From Acidobacteriota bacterium (GTDB lineage Bacteria; Acidobacteriota; Terriglobia; 20CM-2-55-15), in contig QHWY01000105.1 of the NCBI GenBank assembly GCA_003223875.1, forward strand, positions 1-64,000: a DNA stretch of 64,000 bases, read 5' to 3'. How positions within the stretch are numbered: the stretch's first letter is position 1; each line of letters begins with the position of its first letter. Below are positions 4,945 through 51,610 of this stretch, in pieces. A program made the position numbers and the translations under genes. The notes beneath the pieces are model-generated. The model saw only the letters and a program-made list of their open reading frames with translations. It was not told where the DNA came from and did no database searches.

Positions 4945-6953
4945 GAGTCAGTTACCGTTGGCTTAAGGAACTCGTCGAAATCGCGGAAACACCACAGCAG
5001 CTTGGCGATCGATTCACGAACGTCGGCCTGGCCGTGGACGCGTTGGAGAATTCCGGCAACGACGCCATTTTCGAGCTTGATGTAGCGACCAACCGTCCGG
5101 ATTGCCTGAGCCACTTGGGTGTCGCGCGCGAGGTCGCAGCGATTTATGGTTCGGCGCTGCGTCCGCCGAAATTCCAGTTGCGCGAATCGGAAAAACGGGC
5201 CGCCGACGTGTTCTCGATTTCCATTTCGGATCCCGACCTCTGTGCGCGTTACTGCGGCCGGTATATCGCCGGAGTGAAGATTGGCCCCTCTCCGGAGTGG
5301 CTGAAAGCGCGTCTCGAATTGCTCGGCGTCAGGTCCATCAACAATGTCGCGGACGTGACGAACTACGTCATGCTCGAACTTGGGCAGCCGCTGCATGCAT
5401 TCGATGCCGATACACTTGCCGGCCAGCAAATCATCGTGCGGCGAGCGGATTTTGACGAGAAGCTGACGACGCTGGATGGGGTCGAACGCAAACTGAATCC
5501 GTCGATGCTTGTTATCGCCGATGCCAAGCGCACTGTCGCGGTTGCGGGCGTCATGGGAGGCGGGGAGACGGAAATTTCCGCAAGCACCGGGAACGTGCTT
5601 CTTGAAAGCGCAAACTTCGATGCGCTGTCTATTCGAAAGACATCTCGCGCGTTAGGGCTGGCTACCGAGGCGTCGTACCGCTTCGAACGGGGTGCCGATA
5701 TCGAGATGGCGCGCTTTGCGTGCGATCGCGCTGCTGCGTTAATCCAAGAACTGGCCGGCGGCACCATCTTGCGGGACCTGATCGATGTGTATCCTCGGCC
5801 TCGAACGCCGGTTACTGCAACACTTCGCCGAAACAAAATCGGGGCGTTTCTCGGAGCGTCTGTTGACGACGCGATTGTGGACGGCATCTTCGAACGGCTT
5901 GCTTTTAAGAGCAAGCATACTCATGAGGGCTGGTCGGTGGAGGTTCCCAGCCATCGCGTCGACATTGGACGCGAAGAAGATTTGCTCGATGAGATCGCGC
6001 GGCATCACGGCTTCGACAAATTTCCTGCGACGTTACCGAAATGGTCCGGATACGGATCCAGTTTGCCTTCCGAATCGGACGAACGATTTCTGCGAAACCG
6101 GCTGGCCGCAGCCGGCTACTCGGAAATTATTCCAATGGCGTTCAGCGACGAATCCACTGAACGAAAGTTCCGGCCCCAGATCGAACCGGTACGATTGACG
6201 AACCCCATGGCTGAGGATGAAGCGGTTCTGAGAACATCGTTGGTCCCAAGCATACTGCGGGCCATTCAATGGAATGCGTACCACGGGATCCGTGACGTAC
6301 AGTTGTACGAACTGGGAAAAGTTTATCGGAATGGCGGAGAAAACCGGTCACTGATCATTGCGGCAACGGGTGCTTTGAGACCAAAAGGGGTACACGAAGC
6401 TGAGCGCGAATTCGGTTTCTATGACCTCAAAGGGGACGTTGAAGATCTCCTCCATGCCTTTAACGTAAAACTGCAGTCCGGCGTCGATTCACTCCCGGCT
6501 TATTATCATCCCGGACGGGCGGTGGGCCTCGGCGATTTACTGGTCTTCGGAGAGCTGCATCGGGATTATGTCCGTGATTACAAGCTGAAGCATCGAGTCT
6601 ACATGGCGGAATTCGACGTCCAACTGCTCTTCGAATCGCGAGCACCACGATCAATCGAAGCGGTGCCGCGGTTCCCCTCGATCCGGCGGGATTTTTCGCT
6701 GCTCCTGAACAAAGCGGTGAAGTATGCCGACGTCGAACAGGCCGTGCGGGCCGTGGCTATTCCGCAGCTGATTGAGATCGAACCGTTCGATCGGCTGGAG
6801 AGGGGTCCATTTCCCGAATCGAAATATGCTCTGGCCATTTCATTGACCTATCAATCTCCGGACCGCACCCTTACGGATGATGAGGTCGAGGTCTTTGACA
6901 AACGCATTCTCGATTCTTTAAGGCAACGCCTGGGTGCCGAATTGAGACAATAG
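4941..6953 (+). CDS. pheT: Phenylalanyl-tRNA synthetase beta subunit, short form lacking the tRNA-binding (EMAP/OB) insert
   Basis: 670 residues against about 790-800 in most bacteria. The N-terminal B1 segment ([13 protein letters not shown]...FTNVGLAVDAL) runs straight into IFELDVATNRPDCLSHLGVARE. The roughly 110-residue EMAP-like tRNA-binding domain that normally sits between these elements is absent. B3/B4 editing, B5, the core and the C-terminal ferredoxin-fold anticodon-binding domain (RFPSIRRDFSLLL...) are present. The start is the ATG that overlaps the pheS stop; a longer reading from 4740 only adds out-of-family residues overlapping pheS. Confidence 0.96.
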   Translation: MRVSYRWLKELVEIAETPQQLGDRFTNVGLAVDALENSGNDAIFELDVATNRPDCLSHLGVAREVAAIYGSALRPPKFQLRESEKRAADVFSISISDPDLCARYCGRYIAGVKIGPSPEWLKARLELLGVRSINNVADVTNYVMLELGQPLHAFDADTLAGQQIIVRRADFDEKLTTLDGVERKLNPSMLVIADAKRTVAVAGVMGGGETEISASTGNVLLESANFDALSIRKTSRALGLATEASYRFERGADIEMARFACDRAAALIQELAGGTILRDLIDVYPRPRTPVTATLRRNKIGAFLGASVDDAIVDGIFERLAFKSKHTHEGWSVEVPSHRVDIGREEDLLDEIARHHGFDKFPATLPKWSGYGSSLPSESDERFLRNRLAAAGYSEIIPMAFSDESTERKFRPQIEPVRLTNPMAEDEAVLRTSLVPSILRAIQWNAYHGIRDVQLYELGKVYRNGGENRSLIIAATGALRPKGVHEAEREFGFYDLKGDVEDLLHAFNVKLQSGVDSLPAYYHPGRAVGLGDLLVFGELHRDYVRDYKLKHRVYMAEFDVQLLFESRAPRSIEAVPRFPSIRRDFSLLLNKAVKYADVEQAVRAVAIPQLIEIEPFDRLERGPFPESKYALAISLTYQSPDRTLTDDEVEVFDKRILDSLRQRLGAELRQ

Positions 6954-6962
6954 GCAAGCAAT

Positions 6963-7196
6963 ATGCCTGATAAATTTGATGAGCTGGAAACCCGGATATC
7001 GCGAACCGTCGAGCTGGTCAAAACAACCCGGCAGGAGCAAGCCCAGACCGAAAAAGAGCTCGCCAGCGCGCGCCGGCAAATTGCCGCTCTCGAACGCGAG
7101 CTGGAGCAGTTAAGACGCGAACGCGATGTAGTGAAGAATAAAGTCGAGTCCCTATTGGAAATGCTTGCTAAATTAACCGAGGAAACTCTTGTCTAA
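6963..7196 (+). CDS. Small coiled-coil protein, ZapB-like cell-division candidate
   Basis: 77 residues, almost entirely heptad-rich helix (KFDELETRISRTVELVKTT, then ELASARRQIAALERELEQLRRERD). It has no cysteine and no membrane segment. It lies between pheT and zapA, overlaps zapA by 8 nt and is probably co-translated with it. Position and coiled-coil character suggest a ZapB-like partner of the FtsZ ring. The sequence is too low-complexity to assign by similarity, so the role is inference. Confidence 0.7.
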   Translation: MPDKFDELETRISRTVELVKTTRQEQAQTEKELASARRQIAALERELEQLRRERDVVKNKVESLLEMLAKLTEETLV

Positions 7197-7467
7197 AGCA
7201 AAACCGCGAAGGATTGAAGTCGAAATCTACGATCAAAGGTATTCCATCCTTCTCAAAACACCTCTGCCGGAAGCGGAAGTCCGTAAGCTCGCCGACGAAG
7301 TCGACTCACGTATGAGGGACATTGCAGCTCGAGCCAATACTGCCGATTCGCTGAAAGTTGCCGTACTGACTGCCCTGCACCTCGCCCAGGAATACAAAGA
7401 ATTTCAGCAGAGATGTGAAGAAAAAACCGGTGCGTTCTCCCGCACTCTCGATGCAGTCTTGAAATAG
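7189..7467 (+). CDS. zapA: Cell division protein ZapA
   Basis: 92 residues with the ZapA layout: RRIEVEIYDQRYSILLKT (beta-hairpin head), VRKLADEVDSRMRDIAAR, then SLKVAVLTALHLAQEYKE and a coiled-coil tail. ZapA binds and bundles FtsZ at the division site. The start is TTG 7189, within the last codons of the preceding gene and with GAGGA about 5 nt upstream. A probable 6S RNA follows, an arrangement known from many bacteria. Confidence 0.87.
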   Translation: MSKAKPRRIEVEIYDQRYSILLKTPLPEAEVRKLADEVDSRMRDIAARANTADSLKVAVLTALHLAQEYKEFQQRCEEKTGAFSRTLDAVLK

Positions 7468-7479
7468 GAACTCGTGCTA

Positions 7480-7715
7480 TCATCAACTACCCTGCGGAGA
7501 GCGTGATGGTGTCAGCTAAATTTGAACCAACGCTTATTTGATAGGGAGTCCGATTGGCCGCGCCGTGTGTGGGCCTTACCCTTCGGGGTCCCGAGGTCCC
7601 CTAAAGCGTGGATAGGATGCCCACCTGTATAAACAGGTTCAAATAGGTGATCGCCACACGCCTCTCGCGGGCCCCAGCTGTAGCCAGCTGGACCGCGGTG
7701 CGCCATCCTTGAGTC
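7480..7715 (+). ncRNA. ssrS: Probable 6S RNA
   Basis: The 326-nt gap between zapA and the ymdB-like gene has no credible coding frame, but it has the size, position and base-paired character of 6S RNA, the RNA that mimics an open promoter and binds sigma-70 RNA polymerase. The 5' part holds GCGGAGAGCGTGATGG and TTTGAACCAACGC; the 3' part holds CTGGACCGCGGTGCGCCATCC. TATCAT (7479-7484 region) may be its -10. The ends are approximate. The call rests on synteny and overall look; I could not fold it or run a covariance search. Confidence 0.55.
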
Positions 7716-7735: not shown

Positions 7736-7758
7736 TCGCGCGGGCTCCGCCCGCGGGC
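7736..7758 (+). other. GC-rich hairpin upstream of the ymdB-like gene
   Basis: CGCGGGCTCCGCCCGCG forms a perfect 7-bp stem with a 3-nt loop between the putative 6S RNA and ATG 7794. No T-run follows, so an intrinsic terminator is not clear. It may be a processing or terminating structure for the small RNA. Confidence 0.35.
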
Positions 7759-7793
7759 AGGGTTCAACCCATCCATGGGAACCCAGCAATTTC

Positions 7794-8570
7794 ATGAAAA
7801 TACTTTTTATCGGAGACACGGTTGGAAAGGCTGGTCGCGCTATCGTTCGCCAGTACCTCCAGCCGCTGCAGGAGGAGTACGACATCGACGTCACGATTCT
7901 GAATTGCGAGAACGCCGCAGCGGGCTTTGGGATCACACCGAAGATTGCCGACGAGTTTTTCGATTGGGGAATCGACGTTCTCACGTCGGGTAATCACATC
8001 TGGGATAAAAAAGAAATCATGCCGTATCTGGACAAGAACCGAAGGCTGTTGCGGCCCGCGAATTATCCCGGTGACAACCCGGGTACAGGCGTCACGGTCT
8101 TGAAGACAACATCCGGAGAAGAAGCGGCAGTCCTCAACCTGCAAGGCCGCGTCTTTATGCCGCCAACGGACGATCCGTTTCGCGTTGCGGATAAAGAACT
8201 GGCGAAGCTGCCAAAAGAGATCAAAGTCATTTTTGTGGATATGCATGGCGAAGCGACATCGGAGAAGGTTGCAATGGGCTGGTATCTCGATGGCCGCGTT
8301 TCCGCAGTCATCGGAACCCATACGCACGTACCGACCGCCGACGAGACGATTCTGCCGAAAGGAACCGCATTCCTAACGGATGCCGGTATGGCCGGTCCCT
8401 TTCATTCCGTGATCGGTGTGGTGAAGGAAGACGTCATTCGCCGCTTTCTTACATCGATTCCCTCCAAATTCGAATCCGCCTCGCAGGATGCGCGCTTGAA
8501 CGGAGTTTTTCTGGAGATCGACTCACAAACGGGTAAAGCTCTGCGCATTGAGAGAGTCCACCGGCGATAG
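7794..8570 (+). CDS. YmdB/TIGR00282-type metallophosphoesterase (2',3'-cAMP phosphodiesterase-like)
   Basis: 258 residues. Dinuclear-metal phosphoesterase motifs are in order: MKILFIGDTVGKAGR (GD), ILNCENAAAGFGIT (NCEN), SGNHIWDKKE (GNH), VDMHGEATSEK (HGE) and IGTHTHVPTADE (GTHTH). This matches Bacillus YmdB-like enzymes, which act on 2',3'-cyclic nucleotides and affect RNA turnover and biofilm. rny (RNase Y), often the neighbour, is absent here. The TAG stop (8568-8570) is formed at the boundary of a MITE-like element, so the original 3' end may have been altered by that insertion. The terminal residues IERVHRR look complete. Confidence 0.87.
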   Translation: MKILFIGDTVGKAGRAIVRQYLQPLQEEYDIDVTILNCENAAAGFGITPKIADEFFDWGIDVLTSGNHIWDKKEIMPYLDKNRRLLRPANYPGDNPGTGVTVLKTTSGEEAAVLNLQGRVFMPPTDDPFRVADKELAKLPKEIKVIFVDMHGEATSEKVAMGWYLDGRVSAVIGTHTHVPTADETILPKGTAFLTDAGMAGPFHSVIGVVKEDVIRRFLTSIPSKFESASQDARLNGVFLEIDSQTGKALRIERVHRR

Positions 8571-8878
8571 TGTGGTGTCCCAAATAAATTTTGACAAGCA
8601 GACATGTTTCAGTTTGGGTACATTCCCCTCCTTACAAAGGGGGGGGCTGCGGCATCAATCAAAAGTCGCGAAGCCACCGAAGAGCCGCAGACGGGGTGGT
8701 CGCTCACGCGCCACGTTTCACAAACGCATTCCGAAGCCTCGCTTGTGAGCGACCACCCCGTCCGCGCCTTTTTTCGGAACGGATCCATTTTGCTAATGGC
8801 GCGTCCACCCCTCCTTTGCAAGGAGGGGAATGCACCTACCCCAAATCGGTGTCAAACATGAAGTGGGACACCACACTA
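8568..8878. mobile_element. MITE-like element, copy 1 (about 310 bp)
   Basis: Bounded by TA: TAGTGTGGTGTCCCA on the left and its exact complement TGGGACACCACACTA on the right. The interior is non-coding and includes the CCCCTCC...GGGGTGGTCGCTCAC / GTGAGCGACCACCCC palindromes. Copy 2 (57522-57831) is the reverse complement with only about six mismatches. TA at both ends and the absence of any transposase suggest mobilisation in trans by a TA-targeting (IS630/Tc1-type) enzyme; that link is inference. Confidence 0.8.
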
Positions 8879-9070
8879 GCGCGCAGTCCAAAGCCGCGAA
8901 GCGGCGTGGGAACCTACCCCGTAAGCGCTGGGTGTCGGTGTTCATGTCGTCCACAGCCCCGCAGGGGCGGCAGGTGAATGCATCTGGCGCCGGGCCGCGG
9001 CTTAAGTTGGTGGTGAAATCAAACCCACAGGGCTCGCGCCCTGGGCTAAGGTATAACGCCGCTTCGCGGC
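8879..9070. repeat. REP-like palindromes between the MITE and ffh
   Basis: Holds AGCCGCGAAGCGGCG, the palindrome CCCACAGGGCTCGCGCCCTG (9024-9043) and GCCGCTTCGCGGC just before the ffh promoter. A similar CCCAGGGCTGACGCCCTGGG with nearby CGCCGCTTCGCGGCG occurs at 43286-43332. No gene or SRP RNA signature is seen in this stretch. Confidence 0.5.
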
Positions 9071-9076
9071 TATACT
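9071..9076 (+). promoter_or_regulatory. ffh -10 element, near-leaderless
   Basis: TATACT ends 8 nt before ATG 9085, and there is no Shine-Dalgarno between them. Transcription would be expected to begin at or next to the start codon. Confidence 0.45.
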
Positions 9077-9084
9077 AAAAAGAT

Positions 9085-10428
9085 ATGTTCGAAACGTTGT
9101 CCGAGAAACTACAACGCGTCTTCAAGAATTTGCGCGGTGAAGGCCGGCTGACGGAGCTTCACATCGAGGAAGCCTTGAAAGAGATCCGCATGGCACTTCT
9201 CGAAGCGGACGTGAATTTCAAGGTCGCCAAACAATTCACCGATGCTGTGAGGTCGAAAGCTGTCGGTGCGGAAGTACTGCAGAGTTTGAGTCCGGGCCAG
9301 CAGGTCGTAAAGATCGTTCGCGATGAGTTGATCGAGATTCTCGGCGGCATGAATGTCCGGTTGAATTTTGCATCGCAGCTCCCGACGGTTATCATGCTCG
9401 TCGGCCTTCAAGGATCGGGTAAAACCACGTCATCGGGAAAGCTCGCGAAGTGGCTGGAAAAAGGAGGCCATCGCCCGATTCTGGTCTCTGTCGACGTGTA
9501 CCGTCCCGCGGCCCGCGATCAATTGAAGGTAATCGCGAAAGATATCGGCGTGAAGCTGTGGGAAGGAAACCCTAACGATACGCCTCTTCAACTCTGTCAG
9601 GACGCAGTGCGAGAGGCTCGCAACAGCGCGCACGACGTGGTGATCGTCGATACCGCCGGACGGCTCCATATCGATGAAGCGCTGATGAAGGAGCTCCGCG
9701 AACTCAAAGACGCCGTTCGCCCGAACGAAATCCTTTTCGTGGCGGACGCAATGCTCGGTCAGGACGCTGTTAAAAGCGCGCAGCAGTTCTACGATCAGCT
9801 CGGTTTCCATGGATTCATTTTGACGAAGATGGACGGCGATGCGCGCGGCGGCGCGGCGCTATCGATCAAGCAGGTCACGGGTCAGCCGGTCAAATTTGTC
9901 GGCACCGGTGAGAAGTACGATGCTCTGGAGCTTTTCCATCCGGATCGCCTGGTGTCGCGAATCATGGGCATGGGCGACATCCTGTCGCTTATCGAGAAAG
10001 CAGAAGAAGTTGTCGACAAGAAAAAAGCAGTCGAGCTTCAGGAAAAAATGCTTTCCGACAGCTTCACCCTTGAAGACTTTCGGGACCAACTCAAACAGAT
10101 CCGCAAGATGGGAACGCTCGATCAAATTCTTGGGATGCTGCCCAGCATCGGCCCTTTTAAAGACATGCAAAAGGTCAAAGTGGATGAGAAAGAACTGGTC
10201 CGAGTTGAAGCCATCATCAATTCAATGACTCCGAAAGAGCGGCGGAATCACCAGCTCATCAATGGCAGCCGGCGGAAGCGCATCGCCAAGGGCAGCGGCA
10301 CGAGCGTGCAGCAGGTCAACCAACTTTTGAAACAGTACGCCCAGACGCGCAGGATGATGAAGGGCATGAAAAATTCCTTCTTCGGGCGCCGTCTCAAGGG
10401 AATGAAGCTGCCCGAAATGCCGTTTTAG
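9085..10428 (+). CDS. ffh: Signal recognition particle protein Ffh (SRP54)
   Basis: 447 residues. The N domain helical bundle is followed by the G domain with GLQGSGKTTSSGKLAKWL (P-loop), DTAGRLHIDE (G3) and TKMDGDARGGAALS (G4). A Met-rich M domain (about 300-447) binds the SRP RNA and signal sequences. It delivers nascent membrane proteins to FtsY/SecYEG. It stands immediately upstream of rpsP but has its own TATACT box. Confidence 0.97.
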   Translation: MFETLSEKLQRVFKNLRGEGRLTELHIEEALKEIRMALLEADVNFKVAKQFTDAVRSKAVGAEVLQSLSPGQQVVKIVRDELIEILGGMNVRLNFASQLPTVIMLVGLQGSGKTTSSGKLAKWLEKGGHRPILVSVDVYRPAARDQLKVIAKDIGVKLWEGNPNDTPLQLCQDAVREARNSAHDVVIVDTAGRLHIDEALMKELRELKDAVRPNEILFVADAMLGQDAVKSAQQFYDQLGFHGFILTKMDGDARGGAALSIKQVTGQPVKFVGTGEKYDALELFHPDRLVSRIMGMGDILSLIEKAEEVVDKKKAVELQEKMLSDSFTLEDFRDQLKQIRKMGTLDQILGMLPSIGPFKDMQKVKVDEKELVRVEAIINSMTPKERRNHQLINGSRRKRIAKGSGTSVQQVNQLLKQYAQTRRMMKGMKNSFFGRRLKGMKLPEMPF

Positions 10429-44675: not shown

Positions 44676-44780
44676 GCCTACCTCCGAGAGAGGTCCTTGG
44701 GTATTTTGTCAGTCTTCCTCCTGTTCTTATATCCAACGTTCCTGTTATATGCAAATTGTTTCGGAACCGGCAAAAAGGAA

Positions 44781-44968
44781 TAGCCACAAAGAGGGCTTTG
44801 CACAAAAAATCCTGGGCGGTAATAGACCGCCCCTACAGCTTGGGGTGCGCAACTGTAGGGGCGCTCTATGAGCGCCCGCGATGTATTTTTTGTGCAAAGC
44901 CCACAAAGAGGCACAAAAATCACAAGGTATTCCCATTCTTGTGTTTTTTGTGCCTTTTTGTGGCCAAT
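44781..44968. repeat. GCCACAAA/GGCACAAA inverted repeat, interrupted by the 106-bp element
   Basis: AGCCACAAAGAGGCACAAAA on the left (split by the insertion) faces TTTTTTGTGCCTTTTTGTGG on the right. It fills most of the 344-bp gap between the divergent copy B cytochrome gene and the flavoprotein gene; no gene is seen here. Confidence 0.55.
44795..44900. mobile_element. 106-bp MITE-like element with 11-bp target duplication
   Basis: The 16-bp terminal inverted repeat GCTTTGCACAAAAAAT (44795-44810) / ATTTTTTGTGCAAAGC (44885-44900) is perfect. The direct repeat CCACAAAGAGG flanks it exactly (44784-44794 and 44901-44911). The interior is two GCGGT/ACCGC and GCGCTC/GAGCGC palindromes of the family at 2280-2401. 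Removing the element restores an uninterrupted GCCACAAAGAGGCACAAAA repeat. No coding capacity. Confidence 0.75.
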
Positions 44969-45019
44969 AATTCTTTCGTTGATGTAAATTGCTTTTCACC
45001 ACTTCTCGAGGACAGAAAC

Positions 45020-46678
45020 ATGGCCAAGAAAAACGACTCTTTCAATCCAAGCCGAAGAAAATTCATTAAGGGCGCCGCCCTCACTGTCGGCACGACCGGT
45101 CTGGCCGGCGCTGGCCAGGAAGTCAATGCCGCGCCGCAGGCCCGAGTCCAATGGGACAGAACAGCGGATGTGGTCGTTATCGGAGCGGGAGCCTCGGGTC
45201 TGCCCGCAGCGATCATGGCGCGCGATCGGAGCGCCACCGTAATCCTCATCGATGCCAATCATGATATTGGCGGACACGCGATGTTGAGCGGCGGAAGAGT
45301 CCCACTGGGCGGCGGGACAAGTCTCCAAAAAAAATACGGGATCGTCGATTCGGCGGATCAGGTTTATCTGGACCACACGAATCACAAGAACCGCGAGGTC
45401 CGGTATGGTGATAGGGATCTTGTCCGGATGTGGGCCGACGAGAACGTCGCCACGTTCGAATTCCTCATCGAAAATGGCGTCAAGTTCGTCGATGAAAAAC
45501 CCGAAGTGGTGAATGGAGGAGAAGTCCCTCGTCTTTTCGTGGCGAAGGTATATTCGGACGATCTTAGTGAAACCATCAACGGGAGACCGGGGTCGGGTCT
45601 GGTGCGTCCCTTGGAAAAAAGCGCACGAGCCAAGGGAGTGGAAATTCTCCTGAAGCACCGCATGACCAAAATCATCAGAGAAAATCCGACTTCGGGAAGA
45701 GTGCTTGGAATCACAGCCGTCTTCGAAAACAAGAACGTGAACATCCGCGCGCGGAAGGGTGTGATCATCGCGACCGGCGGCCATACGAGCAATGTCGCTT
45801 TTCGCAGGATGTTTGATCCGCGGCTGACCGAAGAATACCAGGTTGCAGGTGAACCTTGGACGAAACAGAACGCCGACGGAGAAATGCTAGCGATGGACAT
45901 CGGCGCCTCACTTTGGGCGACATCCAATCAGAGTAACGAGGGCGGCCGTGGCGTGACCAAGACACGTCATATTGGAGTCCGTTATGGTTACGAGAATCTC
46001 AGATGGGAACCCCAGAGCCCGATGTTTGCGCAGGCCGGCGGTTCCGGACTCACGGTTCGCAGTTTTCAGAATCTGATCCTGGTGAACCAGATGGGGCAGC
46101 GATTCTGGGACGAGATGGACAATTCATACGCGTTTCTTTCCGCTTGTCTCGGAACCAACGGCAATCTCGGACGCGACGGAAAGGCAAACGGCGGCGGGCC
46201 AATCTGGGCGATCTTCGACTCCGACGCTGTAGCACGCGAGAAGTGGGATCCCAAACCTCCAAATGTGGATCTGAACGGATGGTTCTTCAGTGCGGACACT
46301 ATCGGGGAATTAGCCGGCAAAATCAAAAATCCTTATCAAAGGCACCCTGTTTCACCCAGCGTGCTGGAGCAAACGGTCAATAAGTACAACGGCTATGTGG
46401 ATGCAGGAAAAGACTCGCAGTTCGGAAAGCCAGGTCCAATGTACAAGATTCAAAGACCACCGTTCTACGCGGCATGGTCCACGCCTATCCTTCACGACAC
46501 GCTGACCGGCCTCAAGATCAATACGAAATGCCAGATCATCGATCGCAATAACCAGGTCATCCCTGGCCTGTACGCCTGCGGGGAATCGGCCGGTGGATTT
46601 GCTTTGCACGGGCTGCCGAGAGTTACCGTCTTTGGCCGTGTCGCCGGCCGTGAAGCCGCAAGCGCCAATGCCTCCTGA
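45020..46678 (+). CDS. Tat-exported FAD-dependent oxidoreductase (fumarate reductase / ketosteroid dehydrogenase-like)
   Basis: 552 residues from ATG 45020 with GAGGA 8 nt upstream. A twin-arginine signal SRRKFIKGAALTVG (11-24) precedes the FAD-binding VVVIGAGASGLPAAI (51-65) and a second dinucleotide-fold block ending GLYACGESAGG. The family reduces or dehydrogenates double bonds (fumarate, urocanate, steroid rings). No heme domain is on the chain, so an external electron carrier is needed; the neighbouring c-type proteins are candidates. The substrate is unknown. Confidence 0.85.
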   Translation: MAKKNDSFNPSRRKFIKGAALTVGTTGLAGAGQEVNAAPQARVQWDRTADVVVIGAGASGLPAAIMARDRSATVILIDANHDIGGHAMLSGGRVPLGGGTSLQKKYGIVDSADQVYLDHTNHKNREVRYGDRDLVRMWADENVATFEFLIENGVKFVDEKPEVVNGGEVPRLFVAKVYSDDLSETINGRPGSGLVRPLEKSARAKGVEILLKHRMTKIIRENPTSGRVLGITAVFENKNVNIRARKGVIIATGGHTSNVAFRRMFDPRLTEEYQVAGEPWTKQNADGEMLAMDIGASLWATSNQSNEGGRGVTKTRHIGVRYGYENLRWEPQSPMFAQAGGSGLTVRSFQNLILVNQMGQRFWDEMDNSYAFLSACLGTNGNLGRDGKANGGGPIWAIFDSDAVAREKWDPKPPNVDLNGWFFSADTIGELAGKIKNPYQRHPVSPSVLEQTVNKYNGYVDAGKDSQFGKPGPMYKIQRPPFYAAWSTPILHDTLTGLKINTKCQIIDRNNQVIPGLYACGESAGGFALHGLPRVTVFGRVAGREAASANAS

Positions 46679-47270
46679 AGATGTAGAAGCCGGAGAACAC
46701 AAGGCGAGCATTGCGGTCTGGGAGCTCGTCTCTCCTCTGGTGATCGGCCGCACAACGAAAATTAAAGTGGGAGCGAAGTGCTCGGCCGGCTGTCAACTCA
46801 CGGATCATGAAATCTCGATCCACGACGCTGCCGGCCAAGTGATCGCCCGCGCCGGTTTTGGTGCTACAGCTTGGCCGGGCACGAGCGGTCTCTATTGGGT
46901 GGACATCGAATTCCGCGCTCCCACGGAAGCCGGCACTCATACGTTTTCGGTCGAGTGCGAACACGGCGAGGCTTACTCCGAATTTAGCTTCATCACCGTC
47001 GAACCGCCCGAACACAGCCTGACAATCCAGATCTACGACAAGGCCACAAAAGAACCCATCCCTGAAGTGGAAATCCGGCTCGGTGTCTATCGAAGCATCA
47101 GCAATGAACGAGGCCTTGCGAGAATAGATGCGCCGAAAGGCAGCTACACCCTCACTGCTTGGAAGCTTGGATACGACCTCTTTTCAACCGAGCTCAATAT
47201 CACCAGTACAGTCGCGATTGAGGTTGAAATCGCCGTTGAGCCTGAGCCCGCGCAGCCCTACTGGATGTAA
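46668..47270 (+). CDS. Two-domain beta-sandwich protein coupled to the flavoenzyme
   Basis: 200 residues from ATG 46668, overlapping the flavoprotein gene by 11 nt. The N-terminal half is an Ig-like sandwich with Cys residues (KCSAGCQLTDHEISIHD, later VECEHGEAYSEF). The C-terminal half is carboxypeptidase-regulatory-like (LTIQIYDKATKEPIPEVEIR, GSYTLTAWKLGYD). There is no signal peptide, so it may be cytoplasmic or co-exported with the Tat partner. The function is not recognised; coupling suggests an accessory or docking role. Confidence 0.65.
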   Translation: MPPEDVEAGEHKASIAVWELVSPLVIGRTTKIKVGAKCSAGCQLTDHEISIHDAAGQVIARAGFGATAWPGTSGLYWVDIEFRAPTEAGTHTFSVECEHGEAYSEFSFITVEPPEHSLTIQIYDKATKEPIPEVEIRLGVYRSISNERGLARIDAPKGSYTLTAWKLGYDLFSTELNITSTVAIEVEIAVEPEPAQPYWM

Positions 47271-48079
47271 ACCGCGTTCGGCCGTTCGTTCAGCTCGATG
47301 TAAGTTCCCCACGGATCGTAAATGAACGCGAGCGCGCCGCCGGTCTGCGGATTCCTCGTCAACGGACGATCGAGCTTGATGCCCGCTGCTTCGAGCTTTT
47401 TGCAGAACGCCTCGAGGTTCTGAACATCGAAGCCGATGTGATCGAGAATGCGGCCCCTGGTCGTGACAGCCGGGCCGTCGGCTTTGGAAAACGTCAGGTT
47501 CACGCCGGGAAGATCGGCAGCCTGATTCTGTCCCCGCGTCCCGGGTTTCGCGCCAAACGTCTTTGCGTACCACGCCTGGATTTGCGGTATGACCGACTCG
47601 GGCACGTTGAAGTGGACGTGATGATGCTGGATCGGGAACTTCTGGTCCTTGTTTTCCAAGATCTCAATGCGCAATTCGTCGCCTGTCACTACAAACGCCT
47701 GATCGGTTCTGCCGTTGCCGCCGGGAAGGACCGGCACGCCCGCAGCTTTCCAAGCTTTGACGGATTCCTGGACGTTTTTCACAGTGAATCCGACATGGTT
47801 CACAATTGAACCCACGGTGCCGCCTTTCGGCGGTGGCGTCCCCGCTGCCTGGTGCAAAATCACGAGCACGCCGGGGAACCGCACGGTTTCAAAGTTTCCG
47901 CCTTTGACTTCGGTGCCGCCCATCGCAAGAAAGATCTTCTTATTTGCGGCGACATCCCGGCTATTGAGATGCCAATGGCCCATAGTCACACCGGCTTCAT
48001 TTGGCGGGAATGCCTGTGCCCACGCGGTGCCGGCGGAAAAACTCAAAATGAGACACAAAACTAGGATCAGTCTTTTCAT
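47258..48079 (-). CDS. Exported VOC (glyoxalase/dioxygenase fold) protein
   Basis: 273 residues. Signal peptide (RLILVLCLILSFSAGTAWAQ), then two tandem VOC modules: GHWHLNSRDVAANKKIFLAM with IVNHVGFTVKNVQ, and HHHVHFNVPES with ILDHIGFDVQNLEAF and FIYDPWGTYIELNE. His and Glu residues at metal positions are present. Whether it is a dioxygenase, lyase or binding protein is not clear. Its 3' end overlaps the convergent upstream gene by 13 nt. Confidence 0.82.
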   Translation of the reverse strand: MKRLILVLCLILSFSAGTAWAQAFPPNEAGVTMGHWHLNSRDVAANKKIFLAMGGTEVKGGNFETVRFPGVLVILHQAAGTPPPKGGTVGSIVNHVGFTVKNVQESVKAWKAAGVPVLPGGNGRTDQAFVVTGDELRIEILENKDQKFPIQHHHVHFNVPESVIPQIQAWYAKTFGAKPGTRGQNQAADLPGVNLTFSKADGPAVTTRGRILDHIGFDVQNLEAFCKKLEAAGIKLDRPLTRNPQTGGALAFIYDPWGTYIELNERPNAVYIQ

Positions 48080-48226: not shown

Positions 48227-49468
48227 TCAGATCTTCCAATCGGGTGTTGCGATGTACGAGCGGTTGATATCCGCTACCGTGCGCGTTCCGCAATTGCCCA
48301 TGACTAGCTTCAGCTCGCCCTGCAGAATCTCGATGACACGATCGACACCTGCCTGACCGAAAGCACCGAGTCCCCATAGGAATGGCCGGCCTACGCCAAC
48401 CGCCTTCGCGCCAAGCGCGAGCGCTTTGAATATGTCTGTTCCGCGGCGGAATCCGCCGTCCACGAAGACCGGAACGCGATTGCCGACTTCACCGACCACT
48501 TCGGGCAGCGCCTCGAGTGTAGAACGCAGCGTTTCGGTAGCGCGTCCGCCGTGGTTGGATACGAGAATGCCGTCGAAGCCATGCTCGATCGCCAGGCGCG
48601 CATCTTCATGCGTGTCGATGCCTTTGATGACGAGTTTTCCGCGCCAGAATTTTCTGAGCTGATCGACGAATTCCCAATCCATAGCAGGATTCGGAGCGCG
48701 CACGCCAGTCATATCGATACCTTTGAACATCGCGCGCTCGCCGACCGGCCCTGGAGGCTGACCCGAGCCGTGGTGGCATGAAGCGCATTGGGTCAGATCC
48801 TTCGGACGCGTGCGCATATAGGTTTCACTGTTGCGGCCGGTAATGTTATCAACTGTTAGCAACACGACTGTCGAACCGGCCGCCTGAACGCGCCGAAGCA
48901 ATTGTTCGCACGCTTCCCACTTGCTCGGTGCATAGAGCTGATACCAGACCGGACGCCCCAAAGCTTTGTTCACGTCTTCGATCGGCGTTGAAGTCATCGT
49001 CGAGAGGCACTGCAGTGTGCCGCGGCCGCGGGCTGCGCGGGCGACAGATACCTCGCCGTCCATGTAAAAGCCCCGCTCGCCGCCCGTAGGACACAAGAAA
49101 ATCGGGCTGTCGTAAACGGTGCCGAACAATTCCACGCGCGTATCGACGAGAGTTGCATTGTGCAAGCGGCGCGGCCGTAGCTGGACGTGCTTGAAGATCT
49201 CACGATTCGCCCGGAGCGTCGCGTCATCGTCGACGCCACTGGCCATGTATGCCCAATGACCTGGGTGTACCTTCCGGTGCGCCGCTTCTTCGAAGTCCAA
49301 CACGTTGAGCGCACTTGCCGGATCGTTGATGACCTCAGGAGTCTGCGCCGACGCTCCTGGGAGGCGCACGAAAGCACCTATTCCGCCGGCGGCTGCGACA
49401 TAGGGACTCGCAGCCAAGAATTTGAGAAATTCGCGACGCGCTAATAGAGTAGAAGGATGGTTCTTCAT
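48227..49468 (-). CDS. Exported FMN-dependent alpha-hydroxyacid oxidase with a CxxCH motif
   Basis: 413 residues from ATG 49468. Twin-arginine-like signal (ARREFLKFLAASPYVAAAGG). FMN TIM-barrel residues are in place: AYMASG (Tyr74), YQLYAP, TVDN (Asp207), GRNSE (Arg212), VIKGI (Lys282), SNHGGR (His306, Arg309) and VDGGFRRGTDIFKAL. Oxidises L-lactate, glycolate or a similar 2-hydroxyacid. The loop before the barrel's second half contains QCASCHHG (Cys228, Cys231, His232), a heme-c type motif not expected in this family. It may instead bind metal. Confidence 0.85.
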   Translation of the reverse strand: MKNHPSTLLARREFLKFLAASPYVAAAGGIGAFVRLPGASAQTPEVINDPASALNVLDFEEAAHRKVHPGHWAYMASGVDDDATLRANREIFKHVQLRPRRLHNATLVDTRVELFGTVYDSPIFLCPTGGERGFYMDGEVSVARAARGRGTLQCLSTMTSTPIEDVNKALGRPVWYQLYAPSKWEACEQLLRRVQAAGSTVVLLTVDNITGRNSETYMRTRPKDLTQCASCHHGSGQPPGPVGERAMFKGIDMTGVRAPNPAMDWEFVDQLRKFWRGKLVIKGIDTHEDARLAIEHGFDGILVSNHGGRATETLRSTLEALPEVVGEVGNRVPVFVDGGFRRGTDIFKALALGAKAVGVGRPFLWGLGAFGQAGVDRVIEILQGELKLVMGNCGTRTVADINRSYIATPDWKI

Positions 49469-50242: not shown

Positions 50243-51610
50243 TTATCCTGTAATCTTACGAATATTGGCGAGGAGATCGTCTTCGTCGGTCGTGAATATG
50301 GTTCGGAAATCCAGAACTACGCGGCCTTCTTCGAGTCTCACAATAACGGGGGGATTGGAATTACGAAGGCGGCGTTCCAGTTCCGCATCCGAGAATCCGG
50401 GAAAATCCAGCGCGACCCCCCAGGACGGCACATAGGTTTCGGGAGCGGAGCCACCGCCAACGACCGACTTGAGCTCGACCGGCTTTGCGTTTCCTCCTAC
50501 GCGCCGGGCAAAGGATTCGGCACGATTTTTGAGGTCGGCGGCGCTCGCCTGCAACATCCGCAAGACCGGAATCTCCTCCGTTTTGCCGCGTAAGTAAGCG
50601 CGGAGAACAAACTCCAGAACCGAGATCGTCAGCTTATCCACACGCAGGGCGCGGAACAGCGGATTCTGCCGAATCTTTTCGACATAGAGTTTTTTCCCCG
50701 CGATGATGCCGGCCTGCGGTCCACCCAGAAGTTTGTCTCCACTAAACGAAATCACGTCAATACCCGCATGGATGCTGCCGGCGGCAACGGGCTCATCAGC
50801 GATGCCGAGCGATCTGGGGTCGGCGACGCACCCGCTTCCCAAGTCTTCAAACGTCGGAATGTTGTGCCGCTTACCCAATTCAACAAACTCTTCCAGCGAC
50901 GGCCGCTCCGTGAAACCCATCATCCGGAAATTGCTGGGGTGCACACGGAGCAACAGACGCGTATTGTCATTGATGGCCTTTTCGTAATCTTTGATGCGGG
51001 TGCGGTTCGTCGTGCCGACTTCGCGCAAGCGGGCGCCACTACGCGCCATGATTTCAGGAATGCGGAATGAATCCCCAATCTCGATCTGTTCTCCGCGAGA
51101 AACGATCACTTCCCCACCTTCGCCCAGCGTGTTCAATACAAGAAGAACCGCGGCGGCATTGTTATTCACCACGATGGCCGCTTCGCACCCGACCAACTGG
51201 CGGAGGATTCTGTCGATGTGAACATCACGCTTTCCGCGCTTGCCCTGTTGCACGTCGAATTCAAGATTCGAATAGCCGGCGGACACAAGATGTAAGTGTT
51301 CAATGGCTCCCTCCGGCAGTGGCGCACGGCCAAGATTGGTGTGCAGAACAACGCCGGACGCATTGATGACACGCCGCAGAGAAGGCTCCAGCGACTCGCG
51401 TATGCGGTGCGCAACCTTACCGGCAATCGCGGAAGTCAATTCGGCTCGAGACGCCGGAGATTTGGATTGCGCGAGGTCACGGCGCGTCTCACTAAGCACG
51501 TTATCGAGAATCTCCGTGACGAAAGGCTGGTCCACGATGTCGCGGAACGCCGCGAGTTCCTCCGCCCGAAGCACGTCGTTCACTGGTGGGATTTGGCGCA
51601 GCGCTTCCAT
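50243..51610 (-). CDS. selA: L-seryl-tRNA(Sec) selenium transferase
   Basis: 455 residues, PLP enzyme. [34 protein letters not shown] and the Schiff-base Lys in [14 protein letters not shown] are diagnostic. Converts Ser-tRNA-Sec to Sec-tRNA-Sec, so the organism probably makes selenoproteins. selB, selC and selD are not in this window. It is divergent from the 51665 gene, whose promoter lies inside the first codons of selA or just upstream. Confidence 0.95.

Follow-up and report, generated by a model that had tools for sequence, protein, structure and literature searches.

A conserved CxxCH motif on the active-site lid of twin-arginine FMN-dependent hydroxyacid dehydrogenases suggests a flavocytochrome c without a cytochrome domain

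Glycolate oxidase is a peroxisomal enzyme that uses O2 and is not known to have a CxxCH motif or a Tat signal. Flavocytochrome b2, the yeast L-lactate:cytochrome c oxidoreductase, binds heme b non-covalently in a cytochrome b5 domain that forms a separate N-terminal unit. The FAD flavocytochromes c, such as sulfide dehydrogenase and the fumarate reductases, combine a flavin with heme c in the periplasm and hold their hemes in separate domains or subunits. The heme of flavocytochrome b2 is described as His/His ligated (PMC6472588), and a survey of enzymes classed as EC 1.1.3.15 mentions both cytochrome b5 domains and a long loop 4 (PMC8491902). Here, we analyze a protein, P0001, in which a CxxCH motif lies inside the catalytic barrel itself.

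P0001 (413 aa) is encoded on the minus strand at positions 48,227–49,468 of the window, i.e., the 64,000-nucleotide stretch of acidobacterial DNA that was analyzed; its host has been called a soil bacterium. Residues 63–407 (48,248–49,282, minus strand) match the FMN_dh family, PF01070, with 373 bits against a curated cut-off of 24.9 (E 1.7e-111), and the Pfam scan returned three weaker barrel models and nothing else. An AF2 model built from 28 sequences had a mean pLDDT of 75 with a good barrel, which matched spinach glycolate oxidase (1gox) at Z 40 and 36% identity over 336 aligned residues; all 50 fold matches listed belong, by title, to the same superfamily. The PDB chains recovered by sequence were glycolate, lactate, mandelate and related hydroxyacid enzymes, flavocytochrome b2, and remoter barrel enzymes. 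In the alignment, Y74, Y179, D207, K282, H306 and R309 are all present, corresponding to Tyr24, Tyr129, Asp157, Lys230, His254 and Arg257 in 1gox numbering. An earlier note on this DNA had stated that every FMN and substrate residue was in place. This was true of the catalytic and FMN residues and did not extend to the mobile active-site arginine. In spinach glycolate oxidase this is Arg164, which follows Asp157 by seven residues; in P0001 the arginine is R212, five residues after D207 and thus two residues off the usual place. Among the 129 CxxCH proteins described below, this arginine lies at +5 in 59, at +7 in 66 and at neither position in 4. P0001 is a member of PF01070 and a predicted FMN-dependent L-2-hydroxyacid dehydrogenase.

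The motif, C228-A-S-C231-H232 (48,773–48,787, minus strand), is a candidate heme c attachment site. It sits in loop 4, the lid that joins strand 4 to helix 4 and runs from D207 to W265 (48,674–48,850, minus strand), a region whose model is unreliable (pLDDT <50 at residues 207–240). The earlier note was right about a CxxCH inside loop 4 of a Tat-signal FMN_dh protein and about the gene coordinates; its QCASCHHG occupies residues 227–234 rather than 228–235. From the composition of P0001, about 0.002 CxxCH motifs would be expected by chance. Lack of conservation of the cysteines had been named beforehand as grounds for abandoning the heme proposal. The whole CxxCH was found in all 30 first-search loci that reach the loop and then in 129 aligned proteins. 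That first scan of GTDB species genomes yielded 33 loci, titled mostly Acidobacteriota with some Pseudomonadota; L030 and L032, which start at contig ends past the loop start, and L033, which matches residues 354–406 only, fall outside the count, and L028 and L029 contain stops within the matched frame.

The first alignment set comprised 96 rows, reduced to 93 because three two-protein loci shared row names. Wider sampling, together with a Methylobacterium bullatum plasmid that carries a CxxCH member, gave 168 distinct aligned proteins under unique row names. Rows identical over the matched core (L129–L133, copies of L006, L010, L012, L009 and L016, respectively) and low-coverage rows (L141 and L199) had been removed before this count. 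CxxCH occupies the C228/C231/H232 columns in 129 of the 168 proteins and is missing from 39, in a sample gathered with a profile built from CxxCH proteins. Several of the searches, at 1e-88 to 1e-95, miss remote relatives without the motif; the rows lacking CxxCH came mainly from two other searches. In one of these rows, L118, the open frame contains a CVACH that precedes the barrel and is not part of loop 4; this protein was scored as lacking the motif. Since near-copies persist among the 168 rows, we also counted clusters at 90% identity, of which there are 92 with CxxCH and 37 without. The CxxCH-bearing records come from Acidobacteriota and Pseudomonadota.

Across the 129 CxxCH proteins, whose pairwise identity falls to 28% (median 49%), 55 different residue pairs separate the two cysteines, and both synonymous codons are used at each of C228, C231, H232 and H71. 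This combination indicates selection on the cysteines and the histidine and not on the residues between them, the pattern that heme c attachment predicts. Loop 4 has a median length of 55 residues with the motif versus 54 without it; the motif is thus built into a loop of ordinary size.

Examining the remaining columns revealed a second histidine that accompanies the motif. H71 (49,256–49,258, minus strand), three residues before the active-site tyrosine Y74, is present in 129 of 129 CxxCH proteins and in three of the 39 others (92 of 92 versus 2 of 37 clusters), making it a candidate distal heme ligand. It is more constant than Y74 itself, which is kept in 117 of the 129. Nine positions are invariant in the CxxCH proteins (H71, P122, W175, G198, D207, C228, C231, H232 and K282), and only four of these, H71, C228, C231 and H232, are seldom or never found in relatives. 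A methionine of loop 4, M247 (48,728–48,730, minus strand), found in 119 of 129 CxxCH rows and, in a smaller set, in 1 of the 32 rows that lack CxxCH, is an alternative distal ligand. In the alignment with 1gox, H71 falls on Val21 and Y74 on Tyr24, counted from the aligned start, and in the AF2 model both lie in helix 69–76. Y74 should align with Tyr40 of lactate oxidase. That tyrosine binds the substrate carboxylate, and loop 4, which is mobile (PMC10153336), closes over the active site (PMC4908395). Because the tyrosine three residues after H71 holds the substrate beneath this closing loop, H71 and loop 4 are expected to come near one another over the active site, a geometry derived from these relatives.

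The CxxCH proteins form one clade. In a tree of 93 proteins computed without the loop, all 57 CxxCH proteins fell on one side of a single branch (SH-aLRT 99). A tree of the 168 proteins, computed without the loop and column 71, again required one motif change (SH-aLRT 100), with long branches flagged mainly among the proteins lacking CxxCH. The root was not inferred, so gain and loss of the motif look alike on the tree, and a single change means that the coupling of the motif to H71 comes without independent repeats. The nearest relative without the motif, L098 (G208:C565:4784-5911), has the same style of twin-arginine signal, no CxxCH and an alanine at position 71; it also has phenylalanine for the substrate tyrosine (Y74F) and differs at other conserved positions, which makes it a supportive case and not a clean control for H71. 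As judged from the alignments, the invariant set C228, C231, H232 and H71 in a twin-arginine FMN barrel defines this clade.

The family varied considerably in frequency among the sampled groups. Matches at 1e-60, counting proteins with and without CxxCH together, were found in 35 of 297 sampled genomes of the phylum. At 1e-88, 71 of 193 genomes of one acidobacterial class (that of G226) had a match, and all 65 aligned rows from loci L129–L200 carry CxxCH. Among 274 sampled genomes from the class of a betaproteobacterial carrier, searched at 1e-90, the only match was in the carrier itself. Two loci, L018 and L031, are titled Bordetella parapertussis and Chitinophaga pinensis; their proteins group with those of betaproteobacterial MAGs, and the titles look unreliable.

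Residues 1–41 of P0001 (49,346–49,468, minus strand) resemble a Tat-type signal peptide, with twin arginines R11-R12 (49,433–49,438, minus strand) followed by a hydrophobic stretch. The N-terminal A-R-R-E-F-L-K fits the Tat motif, and cleavage would follow ASA by the AxA rule. The Tat-like signal reported earlier proved to be general, since a twin arginine followed by a hydrophobic stretch was found in 128 of 128 CxxCH proteins with an N-terminus, as well as in 21 of the 39 proteins without CxxCH. Predicted export therefore appears wider than the motif, and CxxCH was never seen without a twin-arginine signal. The Tat system exports folded proteins, and heme c attachment usually takes place on unfolded Sec substrates, which sits awkwardly with a Tat signal. 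We hypothesize that a motif on an exposed, mobile loop could reconcile the export of a folded protein with heme attachment. In 28 CxxCH rows (L092–L094, L096, L097, L099, L115, L125 and 20 of L175–L198), an N-terminal extension with a CxxCG knuckle, possibly a further metal site, separates the signal from the barrel.

We clustered the neighboring ORFs around the 33 loci and the window, with gene maps for 22 loci (L018 and L019 in part), and listed neighbors for 13 of 15 further loci; in the other two, L209 and L210, the FMN gene was not located. A dedicated partner gene system was rejected: the neighborhood varies, and no neighbor recurs in most loci. The widest cluster spans 10 loci (the four members scanned are NHL-repeat propellers), and the next spans nine (two members scanned, with no Pfam match). 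Among the maps listed, a c-type cytochrome ORF adjoins the gene only in L207, L007 and L128. In L207, it lies 20 nt upstream, by the chosen start, on the same strand, and scores 21.7 bits with PF00034 against a cut-off of 21.3; in L007 it is convergent with the gene and scores 43.8 bits; and in L128, from M. bullatum, a cytochrome-like ORF, judged by eye, lies upstream in the same direction (6812–7588 and 7758–9266). M. bullatum is a named organism in which the CxxCH family could be tested. Cytochrome c assembly genes were detected in the window's genome and in all 12 further carriers that were tested; PF01578 was also found in 9 of 14 control genomes, so its presence in carriers says little. 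Together with the three adjacent cytochrome ORFs, these genes are consistent with a heme route, though weak as evidence for it.

Other genes of the window were noted in passing. Directly downstream, on the same strand, lies a VOC/glyoxalase-fold protein with a signal-like start (47,258–48,079, minus strand), and in L001 the gene is likewise followed by a nearly identical ORF. At 44,756–46,678 (plus strand) we found an FAD_binding_2 flavoprotein with a Tat-like SRRKF signal, whose true start is probably an internal ATG and which resembles flavocytochrome c (TIGR01813, under cut-off). SelA, L-seryl-tRNA selenium transferase, is encoded at 50,243–51,610 (minus strand), so the organism may use selenocysteine.

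We consider it likely that the lid of P0001 and its CxxCH relatives carries a covalently bound heme c, with His232 and His71 as its probable ligands, and that this heme passes FMN electrons to periplasmic cytochrome c; such a protein would be a flavocytochrome c without a cytochrome domain. The loop-borne heme c that the earlier note had proposed is supported, on sequence grounds, by the free middle pair, the histidine directly after the second cysteine, the constant twin-arginine signal and the co-conserved H71, and from these features we infer both heme binding and electron flow to cytochrome c.

The main rival to a heme, for which the earlier note had also left room, is a C2H2 metal site holding zinc or iron or possibly copper; it would either fix the lid to the barrel or transfer electrons without heme. 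The four invariant residues correspond exactly to the ligands of a C2H2 site, and the CxxCG knuckle of the 28-row subgroup recalls zinc-binding proteins. However, a CxxC followed at once by histidine is the signature of heme c, and adjacent Cys and His residues uncommonly ligate one small metal ion. The spacing is never altered, nor are His and Cys ever swapped, in 129 proteins diverging to 28% identity, a count over rows called CxxCH by those same columns, beside which one near relative without the motif lost it whole. Predicted export points the same way, as a signal accompanies every CxxCH protein with an N-terminus, and heme c needs export while zinc does not. We therefore judge a C2H2 site improbable. 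Still further from our expectation, and very improbable, is a redox-active or structural CxxC disulfide with no cofactor; the predicted periplasmic location and the use of CxxC as a disulfide motif in other proteins would suit it, but it leaves the invariant H232 and H71 (129 of 129) and the free middle pair unexplained. A functionless CxxCH, arisen by chance or confined to one lineage, can practically be dismissed, given 129 proteins in 92 clusters from both Acidobacteriota and Pseudomonadota, and we found no points in its favor.

A different kind of alternative keeps the heme c and changes its second ligand. Here, H232 and M247 would form a His-Met pair, leaving H71 for, say, proton transfer or contact with a propionate. 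His-Met is the typical ligand pair of c-type hemes (PMC6472588), and the near-restriction of M247 to CxxCH rows speaks for it; against it, M247 is replaced in 10 of the 129 proteins and H71 in none. We regard this variant, which does not exclude a lid-borne heme, as unlikely.

Under the His232/His71 reading of the heme c, two thioether bonds would attach the heme to C228 and C231 on loop 4, the mobile active-site lid. H232 would be the proximal ligand, and H71, on the helix before the active-site tyrosine, the likely distal one. Because a single helical turn separates H71 from the tyrosine holding the carboxylate, the heme would lie over the mouth of the active site, close to the FMN. Substrate would reduce FMN by two electrons, which would then pass singly from FMN to heme; their next acceptors would be soluble c-type cytochromes of the periplasm rather than O2. 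FMN loading and barrel folding would take place in the cytoplasm, followed by Tat export, and with the motif on an exposed and flexible loop, heme could then be added to the folded protein by the cytochrome c maturation system. More tentatively, and with doubt outweighing confidence, we propose that the bond to the second ligand forms or breaks as the lid closes over the substrate, thereby gating electron flow, that heme is attached after folding around FMN and Tat export, and that these proteins constitute a new class of flavocytochrome.

Should the heme be confirmed, a heme c would have been grafted onto the catalytic loop of a TIM barrel without a cytochrome domain and fixed for a whole family, providing a second solution, besides flavocytochrome b2, by which an FMN hydroxyacid dehydrogenase can be connected to cytochrome c. 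It would also pose a testable question about heme attachment to folded, Tat-exported proteins, imply a route of periplasmic hydroxyacid respiration in Acidobacteriota, and supply lactate-like sensors with a compact direct-electron-transfer enzyme. In the open-access literature, judged by titles and the beginnings of abstracts, we found no account of CxxCH in the FMN_dh family and no earlier description of a lid that wires FMN to the protein's own heme. A search there for Tyr143 of flavocytochrome b2 next to a heme propionate turned up no paper naming that residue.

Comparison with known systems places P0001 in the superfamily of LldD, L-lactate oxidase and MftD (pre-mycofactocin synthase), with NCBIfam E-values of 1e-58 to 1e-68. 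Assignment to a specific NCBIfam family was rejected, as all models shown scored far under their cut-offs (PRK11197, 231.7 of 376 bits; LldD, 209 of 550; lactate oxidase, 196.6 of 645.5; MftD, 203.3 of 470.85). No cytochrome c model matches P0001, which is accordingly not a member of a cytochrome c family and would only work like a heme c protein. With glycolate oxidase it shares the barrel, the FMN site and the catalytic residues, and it adds the Tat-type signal, the CxxCH and H71. Nor is it a flavocytochrome b2, since only the signal and a short linker precede the barrel and there is no cytochrome b5 domain. The two have the same FMN barrel and, as far as can be predicted for P0001, a like route from FMN through heme to cytochrome c, but the heme, its attachment and its position would differ. 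The FAD flavocytochromes c resemble P0001 in pairing a flavin with what would be a heme c; their folds are unrelated, and P0001 bears its motif on one loop of the FMN barrel.
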